From Gracilinema caldarium (GTDB taxonomy: Bacteria; Spirochaetota; Spirochaetia; Treponematales; Breznakiellaceae): a stretch of DNA of 64,000 nt. Below the pieces are notes generated by a model that was given only the letters and a program-made list of their open reading frames with translations, was not told the origin of the DNA and made no database searches. A program made the translations under genes and the position numbers. The DNA lies in the NCBI RefSeq assembly GCF_029265695.1, contig NZ_JAJUHW010000008.1:1-64000 (forward strand), read 5' to 3'. Position 1 is the stretch's first letter. The number at the start of each line of letters is the position of its first letter. This document shows, piece by piece, positions 15,599 to 25,332 of the stretch.

Positions 15599-16033
15599 TT
15601 ACACAAATTTATTATAACTTTTGAGCATAAGAAAACTTTCGGAGCTAACAACCCCTTCTACACCGGAAAGTTCTTCGGTAAGGAATCGGACAAGGCCCCG
15701 GTTTGAGTCTACTAGGACCTCAGCAATAAGATCATAACGCCCTGAGGCGATAGAAACGGACAGTACGTTCGGAAGCCGGGACACCTCTTCCGCCTTGGTC
15801 TCCAGGAGGCGCGACTCGGCGACCCTCATGGCTACCAGGGCAAGCTGCTTGTTATCCAGCACTTCCGGGTTTATAAGGGCCCGTATCTGCATGACCCCTG
15901 CTTCCCGGAGCCGTTTTATCCGGCTTCGGATAGTCCCCTCGGATAAACCGAGGGCGCGGGCTATGGTGTTGTTGTTCTCATAGCCCTCTTTAAGAATATT
16001 GATGATATTCCAGTCGGTTGTGTCCAATTCCAT
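15599..16033 (-). CDS. Lrp/AsnC family transcription regulator
   Basis: A 144-residue regulator of the feast/famine family. The N-terminal helix-turn-helix (WNIINILKEGYENNNTIARALGLSEGTIRSRIKRLREAGVM, given here only as its landmarks WNIINIL and SEGTIRSRI) is followed by a RAM domain (VSIASGRYDLIAEVLV) that binds amino acids and forms octamers. It lies 12 bases after alanine dehydrogenase on the same strand, so it is probably cotranscribed and may regulate ald in response to alanine. No clear ribosome site precedes the ATG, which suggests coupling to ald translation. Family sure, target inferred. Confidence 0.9.
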   Translation of the reverse strand: MELDTTDWNIINILKEGYENNNTIARALGLSEGTIRSRIKRLREAGVMQIRALINPEVLDNKQLALVAMRVAESRLLETKAEEVSRLPNVLSVSIASGRYDLIAEVLVDSNRGLVRFLTEELSGVEGVVSSESFLMLKSYNKFV

Positions 16034-17158: not shown

Positions 17159-17193
17159 TCCCTGTTCCTCCCGATATTGAGCCTTACAGGGAT

Positions 17194-17221
17194 ATTATAT
17201 ACTAAAATCGTAAAAAAACAA
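17194..17221 (-). promoter_or_regulatory. Promoter of ald
   Basis: Minus strand TTGTTT, 16 bases, TATAAT (17199-17194). The start of transcription would lie near 17187, giving a leader of about 30 bases with the ald ribosome site. Confidence 0.6.
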
Positions 17222-17228
17222 TAAAAAA

Positions 17229-17243
17229 TTACGAATAACGTAA
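17229..17243. promoter_or_regulatory. Lrp-like operator candidate upstream of ald
   Basis: TTACGAATAACGTAA is a 15-base inverted repeat (arms TTACG and CGTAA) just upstream of the ald -35 box. The size and A/T-rich centre fit an Lrp/AsnC-type site, and an Lrp gene lies directly after ald. The link is inference from position. Confidence 0.45.
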
Positions 17244-17246
17244 ATT

Positions 17247-18527
17247 TTAGAACTTTACAAATATATACAAGGAACTCACGATGATGGACATAAACATGAA
17301 TATGGCTCCAATCTTAGTAAAGTCCCAAAAACTGATGGGGTAGCCGCTCTTTGCTGAAAGCCCTGCGGACACCACGTTCGCAGAGGCGCCAATCAAGGTT
17401 CCGTTTCCGCCAAGACAGGCTCCCAATGACAGGGCCCACCAGAGGGGCTTAATGGCCTCAGCCCCTAGTTGGTTCCCCATGTCCTTAATAAGGGGGATCA
17501 TGGTGGCTACGAAGGGTATATTGTCCACAACTGCCGAAACGATTGAAGAAACCCAAAGAATTACATATTGGGTCAATTTTAGATTTCCCTTAGTAACTTC
17601 CAAGAGCCAGCTCGAAACCATGGACATGATTCCAACTTCTACCAAGGCACCGACAACAATGAATAGTCCGAAGAAGAAGAAAATAGTGGTCCATTCTACC
17701 TCTGCAAAAATGTGCTCCAGTTCTTTTGCTCCAGATAGGATGATGAGCAATACGGCTCCTGTAAGTGCAATGGTGGATGGTTCAAAATTAAGTACCCCAT
17801 GTAAAAGAAACGCAAGAATAACTAAGCCAAGGACAACCATCGATTTAACAAGCAATACCGGATCTTCAATTGCCTTGGATTCATCAAAGTTCATGACCCG
17901 GGCTTTGCGTTCGTTGGTTACCTGGAGCTGCTTTTTAAACATCAGTATAACCATAAGGGAACTTATCACGAGGATGATAAGAATGACCGGAGAAAGGGTC
18001 ACGATAAAATCGACAAAGCTTAAGTTGGCGGCGCTTCCTATCATGATGTTAGGCGGATCTCCGATGAGGGTCGCCGTTCCGCCGATATTTGATGCGATGG
18101 CTAGGGTAATAACAAAGGGAACGGGACTGATGCCAAGCTCGACGGCGATCAATATGGTAATTGGAATAATAATGAGGACCGTGGTAACATTGTCTAGAAA
18201 GGCCGATACAACTGCGGTAATGAGAGAGAGAGCAACGAGGATAACGATCGGTTCGCCCCGAGACAGTTTTGCGATTTTAATGGCGATGTATTGGAAAATA
18301 CCGGTCCTTTTGGTAATGCTCATAATAATCATCATACCAATGAGCAGGAATATGACATTCCAGTCCACATGGGCATATGCAGATTCCTGATCAAGAACCC
18401 CCATGAGCACCATCACAAGACCTCCCAAGAGGGCTGCTGCAGCTTTATTTATAATTTCTGTACTAATAGCCCAATAAACAGCCACGAATACCACTAAAGA
18501 AAGAATCATATGTATATTCACCATCAT
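17247..18527 (-). CDS. ArsB/NhaD-type (IT superfamily) ion permease
   Basis: An integral membrane protein of about 426 residues with roughly eleven spans. The signature NIGGTATLIGDPPNIMIG in the first half, and LDNVTTVLIIIPITI and VVDNIPFVATMIPL repeats, place it in the ArsB/NhaD/P-protein part of the ion transporter superfamily. Arsenite, sodium or organic anions are all possible substrates; nothing here decides. Three ATGs stand in a row (18530, 18527, 18524); GGAG has the best spacing to the second or third. The start follows the EIIA-CBS gene stop by a few bases, so both are one operon and the sensor-like partner probably controls this permease. Confidence 0.85.
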   Translation of the reverse strand: MMVNIHMILSLVVFVAVYWAISTEIINKAAAALLGGLVMVLMGVLDQESAYAHVDWNVIFLLIGMMIIMSITKRTGIFQYIAIKIAKLSRGEPIVILVALSLITAVVSAFLDNVTTVLIIIPITILIAVELGISPVPFVITLAIASNIGGTATLIGDPPNIMIGSAANLSFVDFIVTLSPVILIILVISSLMVILMFKKQLQVTNERKARVMNFDESKAIEDPVLLVKSMVVLGLVILAFLLHGVLNFEPSTIALTGAVLLIILSGAKELEHIFAEVEWTTIFFFFGLFIVVGALVEVGIMSMVSSWLLEVTKGNLKLTQYVILWVSSIVSAVVDNIPFVATMIPLIKDMGNQLGAEAIKPLWWALSLGACLGGNGTLIGASANVVSAGLSAKSGYPISFWDFTKIGAIFMFMSIIVSSLYIFVKF

Positions 18528-18538
18528 CATTAACTCCA

Positions 18539-19453
18539 CTAAGCCCGTAACACCTTGCTTAAAAGATCCATGGCGGAAACTACACCTACCAGTTTTCCAT
18601 TGTCGCAGATAGCATAGTGCCGCTTTTTATTTCTGCTCATTTCAAAGGCTACTTCTATAACTGATGTATTTGGTTTTAGAGCTGCCGGGTTTTTGTTCAT
18701 TATGCTTTCTACGGTAATTTTGTCTTCTTTAAGCAAGAGTTCTGTCATGGGTTCCAGTTCGGAAAGGAATTTTAAACTCCCAATTCTGAAGGCATAGTCG
18801 GGAATACCCGCTTTAATGAGGTCGATGACACCGATTTCGCCGACAAGTTTACCTGAATCGTCCAGAATAGGAACGTAACGGAGATGTTTTGTATACATCA
18901 GGTCTGTTAGTTCCTTTAAGGTCGCGCTTTTTTTAAGTGAAACAACTTCGGTGGTCATAATATCCGCTACGGTTAAATCCTTTTTTACCAGATAGCCAGC
19001 CTGCTCAAAGACTTCCACAAATTGATGGGGCATTTCGGCTGCCAAAAGTTTTTTCATAATTTCTTCGGATTTTGATGATTCGGCAATCTTTGCGAGGGCA
19101 TTCAAGTAAATGGTCGATGCGGTCTGGGAAATAATAAACAGATAGATGATTTTTACTTCTATTTCTCTGTCTTGATGGGTTACTAAAATTGGTTTTTTAG
19201 GAATCACCGAAGCGATAAGAAAATCGTTAAAAAGGGGGACTCTGGCATGGGGTATTGCGACACCGCTGGGCAATACGGTTCCTCCCAGAGCTTCCCGTTC
19301 TTGTACAAGCTTTAGAACGTTGTCATAGTTTAACGCATCATGCTTGTAATTTTTTACTACTACCTGCAAAGCCTGTTTTATCGCCTCTTCTACACTGGAT
19401 ACATCCGCTTTAAGTAAAACAAGCTTTGGATCCATAAAATTAGATAGCTTCAT
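18539..19453 (-). CDS. PTS EIIA domain fused to a CBS-domain pair
   Basis: A 304-residue cytoplasmic regulator. The first half is a fructose/nitrogen-type PTS EIIA domain with the phosphorylatable histidine in LPSGVAIPHARV. The second half has two CBS repeats (VADIMTTEVVSLKKSATLKEL and VESIMNKNPAALKPNTSVIE, each followed by a LVGEIGVIDL or LVGVVSAMDL strand), which usually bind adenine nucleotides. The ATG at 19453 has AAAGGAG 5 bases upstream; an earlier ATG at 19510 has no such site and reads through a palindrome. The gene is coupled to the ArsB-like permease downstream. It probably tunes that permease to phosphorylation state and energy charge; this is inference from the arrangement. Confidence 0.9.
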   Translation of the reverse strand: MKLSNFMDPKLVLLKADVSSVEEAIKQALQVVVKNYKHDALNYDNVLKLVQEREALGGTVLPSGVAIPHARVPLFNDFLIASVIPKKPILVTHQDREIEVKIIYLFIISQTASTIYLNALAKIAESSKSEEIMKKLLAAEMPHQFVEVFEQAGYLVKKDLTVADIMTTEVVSLKKSATLKELTDLMYTKHLRYVPILDDSGKLVGEIGVIDLIKAGIPDYAFRIGSLKFLSELEPMTELLLKEDKITVESIMNKNPAALKPNTSVIEVAFEMSRNKKRHYAICDNGKLVGVVSAMDLLSKVLRA

Positions 19454-19471
19454 AGCTGCTCCTTTGGTACC

Positions 19472-19501
19472 TTTGCGATATATTCTAGAAATTATCGCAA
19501 A
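19472..19501. promoter_or_regulatory. 30-bp near-perfect palindrome in the EIIA-CBS leader
   Basis: Arms TTTGCGATA (19472-19480) and TATCGCAAA (19493-19501) flank the perfect octamer TTCTAGAA (19483-19490); 26 of 30 positions are symmetric. It lies between the promoter (19528-19557) and the ribosome site at about 19459. It can serve as an operator or, as RNA, as a hairpin just upstream of the ribosome site. Confidence 0.65.
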
Positions 19502-19527
19502 TGGTGCCATACTATTCGATTCTTTTC

Positions 19528-19557
19528 ATTTTATCGAATTATATTGATACCTTTCAA
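19528..19557 (-). promoter_or_regulatory. Promoter of the EIIA-CBS / permease operon
   Basis: Minus strand TTGAAA, 18 bases, TAAAAT. A transcript from here would carry a leader of about 70 bases containing the 30-bp palindrome. Confidence 0.5.
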
Positions 19558-19649
19558 GTTTGCGAGAGTGGATTTTAATTTCATTTGAACCTATACTTAA
19601 TCTAATAGACTTCCTAGAAGCCTAAATATTTTTGGAAAGGAGTCGCATT

Positions 19650-20228
19650 ATGAAAAAAGGTTTTGTTTTGGTTCTGGCGCTTCTTATGCTTGCTATGGGA
19701 GGCAATCTCTGGGCAGAACCGCCCAAGGCTCCAGAACCCCTCATGGCACCGGGAGATTTAGCCCTGTCTGTCGGTATCGGATATGGCTTTTTTTGGGGAG
19801 CTATAGATGTCTCTGGCGGGGTTGAGTTTATACTTGGGAAATTCGTCATTGCTGACTTTTTGCCCCTGACCTATGGGGCCGCAGTTAAGGCTTCCTATTA
19901 TTCATGGAATAACAGCATATATTCAGATTGGACTGATACTTATCTTGGTGGAGGCGCCTTTGCTACCTTGCACCTGGGACTTAAAGACTTTGACTGGCCC
20001 AGCGGTTTCTCCGCATTGGATAATATGGATACCTATATCGGGCTTGGTGCAGGCTTTTTTAGCTACACCTGGGGGTATAGCGGATCCCGCACTTCAGAAT
20101 TCAGAATTGGGCTCAGGACCACCGGCGGGGCAAGTTACTTCTTTACCCCCAACTTTGCGCTCAATGTTGAATACGGCTATTACGGATACTATAATACCGG
20201 TCTAATCGGGATACTGTTCAAGCTATAA
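19650..20228 (+). CDS. Small outer-membrane beta-barrel protein, function unknown
   Basis: A 192-residue exported protein with a clear signal peptide (MKKGFVLVLALLMLAMGGNLWA, cut before EPPK). The remainder alternates polar and aromatic residues with many Gly and Tyr (VGIGYGFFWGA, LNVEYGYYGYY) and ends in a hydrophobic residue near the C-terminus, as in eight-stranded outer-membrane barrels. I recognise no specific family. GAAAGGAG stands 7 bases before the ATG at 19650. It is a single gene: divergent from the EIIA-CBS operon, with its own terminator at 20242. Its role is unknown. Confidence 0.8.
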   Translation: MKKGFVLVLALLMLAMGGNLWAEPPKAPEPLMAPGDLALSVGIGYGFFWGAIDVSGGVEFILGKFVIADFLPLTYGAAVKASYYSWNNSIYSDWTDTYLGGGAFATLHLGLKDFDWPSGFSALDNMDTYIGLGAGFFSYTWGYSGSRTSEFRIGLRTTGGASYFFTPNFALNVEYGYYGYYNTGLIGILFKL

Positions 20229-20351: not shown

Positions 20352-20371
20352 ATATGAACAATCGTTCATAT
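20352..20371. promoter_or_regulatory. ArsR/SmtB-type operator
   Basis: ATATGAAC-AATC-GTTCATAT is a perfect 8-base inverted repeat with a 4-base centre. It closely resembles the known SmtB/CadC/ZiaR-type operators and lies 24 bases before the regulator start, where it can block the shared promoter. A TTGAAT box at 20313 could be the -35. Confidence 0.85.
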
Positions 20372-20394: not shown

Positions 20395-20778
20395 ATGACT
20401 AACCTTAAAGAAACTGTGGTGTGCGCCTGTACGGAGGTGCATCCGGAAGCGGTGGAAGAGGCCCGGAGAGAAGAACTGCCGGTTCCCCAGCTATTGGCCA
20501 TGTCTGAACTGTTTAAAATTCTCGGTGATCCTACACGGCTTAGAATAGTCAATGCCCTCGCTCATGAACGGGAGCTCTGTGTGTGCGATCTCTCCCGCGC
20601 CCTCGATATGACCCAGTCGGCCATAAGCCATCAGCTTTCGCTGTTAAGACGTGCCCGGCTCGTCCGGTTCCGCAAGGATGGCAAGGTTGTCTATTACAGC
20701 CTTGACGATGACCATGTGGAAGGTCTTCTTGCCATAGCCGCGGGCCACGTTTCCGAACAGGGGATGGTACAAGCATGA
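20395..20778 (+). CDS. ArsR/SmtB-family metal-responsive repressor
   Basis: A winged-helix repressor of 127 residues that should release DNA when it binds a heavy metal. The core is typical: LFKILGDPTRLRIVNAL, then ELCVCDLSRALDMTQSAISHQLSLLRRARLV with the ELCVCD metal-binding motif on helix 3, as in CadC and ArsR. An N-terminal CAC pair, as in CadC, could complete a thiolate site for Cd, Pb or Zn. The ATG at 20395 has GTGGAG 5 bases upstream. Its stop overlaps the ATPase start by four bases (ATGA), so they are coupled. A perfect SmtB-type operator lies upstream, predicting autorepression. Confidence 0.93.
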   Translation: MTNLKETVVCACTEVHPEAVEEARREELPVPQLLAMSELFKILGDPTRLRIVNALAHERELCVCDLSRALDMTQSAISHQLSLLRRARLVRFRKDGKVVYYSLDDDHVEGLLAIAAGHVSEQGMVQA

Positions 20779-23493: not shown

Positions 23494-24307
23494 GTAGTGC
23501 CTTGAAACCAGTTATGAACATATCGCCTAACAGGACAGAGATTGGAAAGATTCGGAACATAACAAAGCTGCTTATACAGATGAGAATAAATGCAATATCC
23601 TTAAAGGATATCCTGGGCACCTGCCCAAAGGGCTGTGCCGGATCGTATCCTCGTAACTTCATGGCCTGTTCAATACGCAGCCCCTGTTCATAGGTCCGTA
23701 TCAAGATGCTTGCAGGAACGGTCCCCCACTCCTGCAGCCGGAGCTTTGGGTTCCCGCCGCTTCGTATTTCATAGGCCCGCATCGCCCGGTATATATCTTC
23801 CAGTAAGAGCATAATGTAGCGGTATACCATGGTAAAAAGCAAATAAAAAAGAGGGGGGATCCCCAGGCTTTTCATTGCTTTTTGCAGTCCGCCGATGCCT
23901 AAAATACTGATAAGCAAGAAATTAGCCAGTATGGTTAAAAATGCTTTTACAAGAAGAGAGATGAAAATAATCCAGCCCCAGCTGAAGGAAAGGGAGCCAA
24001 CCTTAAAAAAAACGGGATCTGTAAAAGGCTGCAGTATTCCAATCATGATAATGAGGGGCATGACTTTCACTGTTGCTGTAATAAGAGGTTTGAGGGGGAT
24101 GCGGGCAAACCGGGCCAGCAGTACGGGAAAGATGCAATAGGGTATCAATACACTTACAGCCGTGTATGGATACGAAGAAATGGCAATGATGAATCCAACA
24201 ATGGTAACCAGCAGTGCTGCCGGATGAAGCCGGTGTACACTGCTGGAGAGGGATGCAAATTCCTCGAAGCCTCTGAATCGTTGTTCTTCTTTTGTATAGA
24301 TTACCAC
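23486..24307 (-). CDS. nikQ: Energy-coupling transporter membrane protein NikQ
   Basis: Membrane coupling subunit (273 residues, five or six spans) that joins the substrate subunit NikMN to the ATPase NikO. Two ATPase-docking helices are visible in the second half, ending in short Ala-Arg-Gly type motifs (AYEIRSGG, and AMKLRGYDPA). The start is a GTG at 24307 that overlaps the nikMN stop by 7 bases; no ATG is available nearby and the ribosome site is weak, so translation is probably coupled to nikMN. CbiQ of a cobalt system would look the same; nickel is inferred from the neighbours. Confidence 0.88.
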   Translation of the reverse strand: MVIYTKEEQRFRGFEEFASLSSSVHRLHPAALLVTIVGFIIAISSYPYTAVSVLIPYCIFPVLLARFARIPLKPLITATVKVMPLIIMIGILQPFTDPVFFKVGSLSFSWGWIIFISLLVKAFLTILANFLLISILGIGGLQKAMKSLGIPPLFYLLFTMVYRYIMLLLEDIYRAMRAYEIRSGGNPKLRLQEWGTVPASILIRTYEQGLRIEQAMKLRGYDPAQPFGQVPRISFKDIAFILICISSFVMFRIFPISVLLGDMFITGFKALHG

Positions 24308-25332
24308 TTTGCTTTCTGTACAGGCTCAGGTTTGTTTTTGGGTTTTAAGGCAAACCCGATGATGAAAACGAGCAGAAAGGTAAAAAACGCTCCTGCGATT
24401 CCTGAAACACTGGTCCCCGCGTCAGCTTTAGGCCATGTTTCTGGTGCTTCGCCTGCAGTCCCGAAGGAATAATCGGGCAGTATGGCGGTCTTTTTTTGGA
24501 GATCCGAAAAAAGACCATGTACATTGCTTGCACTCTCTATATCAACCGAACCGGAGACTTTTTCAATTGACCATTCAAGGCCGTCTGGTTGAGTAGAGGC
24601 AAACCATGAGAGGATGCCGCCGGTAAAAAGTGCAGCAACAATAAAAACCGCCCCAAGTTTTTCTATAGCTGGCGCTGTTCTACTCTGAGTGCGAGAATGA
24701 GACAGAATCTGGGGGGCTGTTTTTTCTACAGAGGAAATGATAGCGGCGGTAATGAAGCCTTCTACAAGGCCGATAGCCAAATGGATTGGCTGCATCAGCA
24801 TGACAAAGGTAAAGAAAGGAAGTTCTGTTTTGTTGGAGAAGAGTGTTTCCAGAACCACCGAGAAGGCCCCCAATTGCAGACCTATAACACTGGCAAGTAC
24901 TATTGAGCCCTTGCTGAAGATATATCTCTTGTCTACTTTTTTACTGAGTTGACAAAAGAGCGGATAGGCTACAAAACAGGTGCAAAAAGCAAGGTTAAAA
25001 ACATTGCATCCGTAGCTTAATAGCCCACCGTCGGCAAAAAAAAGCGCTTGAATGAACAATATGGCAGCCATGGTTAAAAAGGCGAGGTGGGGACCAAGGA
25101 GAATGGATAAAAGCAGTCCCCCTCCAATATGTCCACTCGAACCGGTGCCTGGGATGGAAAAATTAATCATCTGGGCTGCAAAAACAAAGGCTCCCAGAAT
25201 ACCCGCCAGGGCAATATGGTCTTGTTCTTCCTTTTCCCGGGCCTTTTTTACCGAATAGGCCCCGACAGCCAGCGTCGCTGTCCACATTACTGCACCGACC
25301 TGCGGGGATATCAGGGCATCCGCCATGTGCAT
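24301..25332 (-). CDS. Nickel (cobalt) substrate-capture protein NikMN fusion
   Basis: Substrate-binding membrane subunit, 343 residues. The N-terminal part is NikM/CbiM: MHMADALISP, whose His2 and backbone bind the metal, then HIGGGLLLSILLGPHLAFLTM. The C-terminal part, after a span, carries the PDGLE motif (STQPDGLEWSIEKVSG) and a last span, i.e. a NikN-like partner fused to NikM as in NikMNQO systems. The ATG at 25332 has AAGGAG 8 bases upstream. It follows hypA by 27 bases in the six-gene operon. The fused N component and hyp neighbours favour nickel over cobalt. It is a known arrangement for Ni uptake in bacteria. Confidence 0.9.
   Translation of the reverse strand: MHMADALISPQVGAVMWTATLAVGAYSVKKAREKEEQDHIALAGILGAFVFAAQMINFSIPGTGSSGHIGGGLLLSILLGPHLAFLTMAAILFIQALFFADGGLLSYGCNVFNLAFCTCFVAYPLFCQLSKKVDKRYIFSKGSIVLASVIGLQLGAFSVVLETLFSNKTELPFFTFVMLMQPIHLAIGLVEGFITAAIISSVEKTAPQILSHSRTQSRTAPAIEKLGAVFIVAALFTGGILSWFASTQPDGLEWSIEKVSGSVDIESASNVHGLFSDLQKKTAILPDYSFGTAGEAPETWPKADAGTSVSGIAGAFFTFLLVFIIGFALKPKNKPEPVQKAKW

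Follow-up and report, generated by a model that had tools for sequence, protein, structure and literature searches.

A 30-bp palindrome that is real and above chance lies in the leader of a spirochete's EIIA-CBS/permease operon in the window (the whole stretch of 64,000 nucleotides analysed here); most probably its nature is ordinary, a leader hairpin or a repressor site. An RNA hairpin is slightly favoured over a DNA operator: at a rough probability of 0.42, the palindrome would be part of a hairpin that acts in cis within the 5' leader of the operon's mRNA, as fold predictions suggest. The operon and its leader comprise the following features:

18539-19453, minus strand: EIIA-CBS gene, first in the operon, with PTS_EIIA_2 and two CBS stretches (domain search)
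17247-18539, minus strand: CitMHS/ArsB-superfamily permease, second gene of the operon (domain search)
19472-19501, minus strand: core 30-bp palindrome, 26/30 symmetric (symmetry count)
19465-19509, minus strand: predicted 45-nt RNA hairpin, in which the core is lengthened by the outer arms TGGCACC / GGTACCA and interrupted there by one bulged A and a single mismatch (fold prediction)
19459-19464, minus strand: Shine-Dalgarno (SD) AAGGAG adjoining the hairpin (seen in the sequence)
19528-19557, minus strand: candidate promoter P1, TTGAAA-18-TAAAAT, 10/12, -10 ending 74 nt before the ATG (consensus match only)
19482-19510, minus strand: candidate promoter P2, ATGGCA-17-TAGAAT, 9/12, -10 within the palindrome and ending 28 nt before the ATG (consensus match only)
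19509-19544, no strand assigned: weaker second inverted repeat over the P1 -10, with 12-nt arms (10/12 paired) and a 12-nt spacer (score 8, not unusual for leaders of this genome)

The palindrome (TTTGCGATATATTCTAGAAATTATCGCAAA, window positions 19472-19501) is symmetric at 26 of 30 positions around the nested core TTCTAGAA, as the first-pass annotation had claimed and as a recount and simulations bore out. Two mismatched pairs set its 9-bp arms apart from the 8-bp core, and the symmetry continues unbroken through the centre, without a loop; the centre is located 33 nt 5' of the EIIA-CBS ATG. The expected number of 26/30 palindromes, determined from 20 simulated 64-kb sequences for each model order (1, 2 and 3), was on average 0.05 per sequence for orders 1 and 2 and 0 for order 3. 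Three were seen in the window, the one at 19472-19501 among them, which thus displays dyad symmetry above chance as looked for in an operator. Over 464 kb of the same genome (window counted) there were eight palindromes of such strength, and at least four of the other seven carry a T-rich tail and have the look of a terminator. Another 26/30 palindrome of the window, GGTCTTTTTTTGGAGATCCGAAAAAAGACC (24487-24516), is found within a cbiM-like open frame (24301-25332; assigned by eye). Eighteen bases lie between the palindrome and the ATG at 19453 on the minus strand. Its placement directly before the ribosome site was nearly right: the first seven of these bases, GGTACCA, are the outer hairpin arm and intervene before AAGGAG.

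A stable hairpin is predicted in the leader. The operon-strand 86 nt fold at -22.2 kcal/mol versus a shuffle mean of -12.6 (z = -3.3; 2 of 200 shuffles equal or better); the fold of 201 nt is less unusual (z = -2.1; 4/200 shuffles), and by the fold energy of its 65 nt the leader ranks 19th of 98 in the same genome. The energy gained from the outer stem, whose GGCACC/GGTACC arms are offset by the bulged A, was equalled by 33 of 5000 random flank pairs, or by 85 of 5000 when the right flank was kept constant. The predicted stem abuts the SD and leaves the AUG open, with an unpaired probability of 0.98 for the native leader versus a mean of 0.70 when the hairpin was scrambled. Predicted openness of the SD was 0.42 versus 0.36 +/- 0.13, and 93 of 300 scrambles were equally or more open. 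Because the predicted hairpin hides neither the SD nor the AUG, a block of translation by the hairpin is unlikely; an RBS-sequestering hairpin was rejected, as both elements are outside the stem and their predicted openness is not reduced. The first-pass annotation had offered an operator roadblock or an RNA hairpin controlling translation; both readings stand, but the translation-blocking form of the latter is not supported. Rejected as well were an intrinsic terminator or attenuator, as no terminator-like site, with its G+C-rich stem and trailing U run, was found at the palindrome on either strand, and a known Rfam riboswitch or leader family, with 0 matches in the window at the gathering score; the one match in 19400-19700 reached 19.6 bits (gathering 45; E = 0.29).

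The claim that the palindrome lies downstream of the promoter would be right if the candidate P1 (10/12), located upstream of it, is the one in use, and wrong if the candidate P2 (9/12) is, whose -10 is inside it; with P2 as the promoter, the hairpin would not be transcribed. Matches of 9/12 in this region numbered 5 versus 4.4 expected from shuffles. The commonest -10-to-ATG bin in the genome was 20-29 nt (10 promoter-like pairs, spread over 8 of the 69 leaders, versus 1.8 pairs in shuffles), and a smaller excess was seen at 70-79 nt (5 pairs in 69 leaders versus 1.0). Since the EIIA-CBS leader is itself counted in both bins, these excesses are undecisive between P1 and P2. If P1 is the promoter, transcription would start near 19521 and the mRNA would begin with about 12 unpaired bases, followed by the 45-nt hairpin, the SD and the open AUG. 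A hairpin in this position may shield the 5' end and prevent mispairing of the start region, and would then act on mRNA lifetime or basal expression rather than by blocking ribosomes.

Multiple copies in the genome, which the first-pass annotation had proposed to look for, did not turn up: the genome (95% complete) contains a single copy of the palindrome, the next matches have 3 mismatches, and no decayed copy was seen within this limit. At up to 3 mismatches there were 4 further places in the genome versus 2 for a control pattern. Exact palindrome arms with a spacer of 6-18 were absent from 194 other genomes of the family (1/195, the own genome), a sample in which only 42 of 195 genomes reach 90% completeness with a contamination of 5% or less. 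A scan of GTDB genome contigs for the exact pattern returned six stretches with flanks unlike those of the window, in MAGs whose titles name Clostridia, Clostridiaceae, Lachnospiraceae, Bacteroidales (two) and, in one case, just a 'bacterium'; this is about chance level, given an estimate of about 4 (257 Gb / 4^18). Such a scarcity of other copies speaks against both a regulon and a mobile repeat. Accordingly, a repeated mobile palindrome (REP/MITE) was rejected on its one copy in the genome, and a regulon of shared operators on the single genomic site and the lack of exact matches in the 194 family genomes.

Read by eye, none of the orthologous EIIA-CBS leaders printed contains the palindrome arms. 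No orthologous leader was found that could be aligned closely enough to look for compensatory arm changes, and the three sibling species are without the operon. Lack of arm conservation in related genomes, named by the first-pass annotation as what would refute it, is thus formally the case in the orthologous leaders, but it is uninformative and does not discriminate, because the siblings lack the operon as a whole. An inverted-repeat (IR) score of at least 10 was reached by 5 of 41 EIIA-CBS leaders (window, L032, L038, L043 and L079), a count made without the partial matches L053-L056 and L088 or the weak hits within the genus. When leaders were restricted to those that are intergenic and pass a start filter, 3 of 21 reached this score (window, L038 and L043); L032 and L079 fail the intergenic/start filter, and L040, L045 and L048, whose matches start one residue late and whose leaders are three bases off in the count of 41, were dropped by the start filter. 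In each of the leaders L032 and L079 a long hairpin, unrelated in sequence, covers or adjoins the RBS, and the repeat of L038 is probably the terminator of the upstream tRNA (by eye). Control leaders from 20 stretches of 20 other genomes gave 0 of 83 at this score, and leaders of the own genome 10 of 98, the EIIA-CBS leader included. In a larger sample of this genome (801,802 bases, 112 leaders of 110 nt), 19 dyads with an IR score of at least 10 were observed versus 1.25 in model sequence. Leader dyads are therefore a feature of this genome; by eye, some of them are terminators of upstream genes and others resemble operators. Given the counts of 5/41, 3/21 and 10/98, a hairpin position-conserved across EIIA-CBS orthologues is not supported as a general rule. 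A bolder proposal, which we consider quite improbable, is that EIIA-CBS/transporter operons of the order share a ribosome-site hairpin conserved in position and not in sequence (window, L032, L079, perhaps L077 and L080), a cis RNA kept by structure and place alone that would couple expression of PTS-linked transporters to an ion or metabolic signal.

Other dyads of the genome were recorded alongside. An ArsR-family gene has the dyad CATTGTTGCATAATATTGCAACAATG (L131 3203-3228; also L163 and L165) beside a TTGACA; in a comparison covering G003 and G001 (of the sibling genomes G001, G002 and G003), its core is kept in both, and its sequence suggests that it is likely the autoregulatory operator of this gene. 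A gene assigned by eye as feoA-like has a 36-bp dyad just before its SD (L146 18939-18974 in G000:C7, and G003:C77:17885-17920), in which paired positions have changed together between the two species, from a T-A pair to an A-T pair, and so in a compensatory way; in G001 and G002 nothing matched it at up to 3 mismatches.

No regulator gene is adjacent to the operon, as had been noted earlier. The nearest seen are an ArsR-like gene (by eye) at 20395, on the opposite strand past the 19650 gene, and an AsnC/Lrp gene (15599-16033), which is on the operon's strand, is the third gene after EIIA-CBS and is preceded by alanine dehydrogenase (ald) 3' of the operon. Neither was retained as the regulator of the dyad. 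The ArsR-like gene has an upstream palindrome of its own that is dissimilar, ATATGAAC-AATC-GTTCATAT (20352-20371); this element, which precedes a pair of ArsR-like regulator and metal-ATPase-like genes (by eye), looks in its sequence like a classic ArsR/SmtB operator. The AsnC/Lrp gene has no specific tie to the dyad, because G001-G003 have this gene too although they are without the EIIA-CBS operon. The ald and AsnC/Lrp genes have a separate promoter-like stretch (by eye), most of which is shared by G003 and G001. Upstream of ald, at 17159-17240, TTACG-N5-CGTAA and TTTTTACG..TAGTATATA are largely kept in three species, and their sequences make them possible AsnC/Lrp sites. Within the operon, H69 of the PHAR motif, which we take to be the phosphorylated histidine, is invariant in a 12-row EIIA-CBS alignment. 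The permease had sub-threshold matches only in NCBIfam (MamN best, ArsB next), and the EIIA-CBS and permease genes are also adjacent at loci L069 and L070.

The operon occupies a site that holds a different transporter in related species. In the genus, with its four genomes (own and the siblings G001, G002 and G003), EIIA-CBS had no more than weak matches in the three siblings (best E = 1.5e-7). The G003 flanks match the window at 90% and 93% identity; on one side the match runs as far as the stop codon of the permease, and on the other it reaches a point immediately ahead of the 19650 gene. Between them, G003 encodes a CPA2-type Na/H exchanger of 712 residues that carries an EIIA domain at its C-terminus. 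The CPA2-EIIA fusion is also found beside ald in G001 and between ald and a 19650-type gene in G002; the flanking genes are common on both sides in G003 and G002, and in G001 the ald side only was seen. The fusion was not found in the own genome at E <= 1e-40. The loci compared are:

17248-19636, no strand assigned: block of the window differing from G003, where the CPA2-EIIA fusion lies
17247-19637 of the window: EIIA-CBS/permease, compared with the CPA2-EIIA fusion loci at L068 6902-9040, L067 6341-8470 and L138 4153-6195

The edge near 19636 is approximate, because a short stretch upstream of the 19650 gene is still common to G003. On the simplest reading, the EIIA-CBS/permease operon and its leader took the place of the fusion antiporter in this lineage, so that one EIIA-linked transporter appears to have been displaced by a second, non-orthologous one. 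Outside the genus, the best matches to EIIA-CBS were 51-53% identical (392 phylum and 390 order genomes, both samples of larger groups), relatives of the permease in plasmid-collection records were up to 54% identical (51 records), and a protein-pattern scan of genome contigs confirmed no relative. A search of the literature on EIIA/CBS/antiporter combinations returned nothing relevant, from which we do not claim absence from print. The apparent exchange of an EIIA-linked antiporter for an unrelated EIIA-linked operon between the same flanks is a better lead than the dyad, and hints that what the site keeps may be its PTS link and not the fold of its transporter.

In favour of the leader hairpin are the bulge-offset outer stem, which a DNA dyad does not need; the contact of the predicted stem with the SD; the single copy, as a cis RNA requires no second genomic site; the 10/12 match of P1 with the over-represented 70-79 nt bin; the fold of the 86 nt (z = -3.3) together with the AUG openness of 0.98 versus 0.70; and the RBS-side hairpins of L032 and L079. 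It is weakened by the rank of 19th of 98, the 201-nt z of -2.1 and the barely changed opening of the SD, by orthologous leaders generally being without a hairpin (5/41; 3/21), and by the loop-free symmetric centre, which RNA pairing does not require. That perfect centre, with the spaced arms and core, is what a DNA operator would present: a dimeric or tetrameric regulator encoded elsewhere would bind the dyad, covering the P2 -10 and start or acting as a roadblock just downstream of P1, and so repress the operon. We regard this as a serious contender, albeit short of even odds. The P2 -10 inside the palindrome falls in the commonest bin of the genome (20-29 nt), and two dyads of the same genome are similarly placed, the one of the ArsR-family gene centred at -33 with its core kept in G003 and G001 and flanks changed, and the one of the feoA-like gene (by eye) centred at -34 with a G003 match at 2 mismatches. 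Yet an operator would be expected to have further genomic sites or an adjacent or autoregulated regulator, and what was found is one site in a 95%-complete genome (the next at 3 mismatches, 4 places versus 2 for the control), no exact site in the other 194 genomes of the family, of which many are incomplete, and an operon without a neighbouring regulator; P2, moreover, matches at 9/12, equally frequent in shuffles (5 versus 4.4).

Uniqueness of the palindrome in the searches made would also fit a relic or by-product without a role today, brought in with an acquired cassette or formed at the cassette's junction through quasi-palindrome repair. As a block, the cassette departs from the siblings, with a GC content of 0.42 versus 0.49 in the sampled genome and 0.55 in the neighbouring ald gene, and a local regulator may not have come along with it; but an SD-abutting hairpin with 26/30 symmetry in an AT-rich leader is rare in random sequence and the genome search showed no decayed copy, so that we hold this origin to be unlikely. 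Least credible is that the palindrome encodes an N-terminal extension of EIIA-CBS through a frame open from the ATG at 19510. The ORF list does give 18539-19510 as a single frame, but all 12 of 12 aligned sequences (translated from the matched stretch) start with MKL or MNL at the same place, and a good SD is seen before 19453 and just AAAAGA before 19510; the in-frame ATG at 19510 is probably unused. The RNA or DNA nature of the dyad, once settled, would tell how the operon is controlled.

Among known systems, the operator reading is closest to the tro operator of treponemes (TroR, DtxR family), likewise a dyad near a sigma-70-like promoter before a transporter operon (PMC2628430). In the part of that report used here, repression of tro in Treponema denticola by TroR through a dyad near the promoter was demonstrated by reporter assays, and the operator overlaps the promoter in T. 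pallidum but is separated from it by 10 bp in T. denticola (PMC2628430). Unlike the EIIA-CBS dyad of 30 bp without a regulator in the operon, the tro element described there is an 18-bp motif with the metal regulator in the operon; the sequences were compared by eye only, using the mutated operator quoted in PMC2628430. As far as this part of the report goes, the TroR case shows that such arrangements exist in treponemes, not that the EIIA-CBS dyad is one.

The favoured leader hairpin can be compared with two kinds of RNA element. Stabilising 5' leader hairpins, such as that of E. coli ompA, are located near the mRNA 5' end with the RBS outside the stem, and the EIIA-CBS hairpin similarly lies close to the predicted mRNA 5' end and leaves the RBS outside; it differs in that its predicted stem abuts the SD, and its transcription start and stabilising role are putative. 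RBS-sequestering hairpins and RNA thermometers have a stem-loop adjoining the SD. The EIIA-CBS stem-loop resembles them in its place beside the SD and differs in that the predicted fold leaves both SD and AUG unsequestered.
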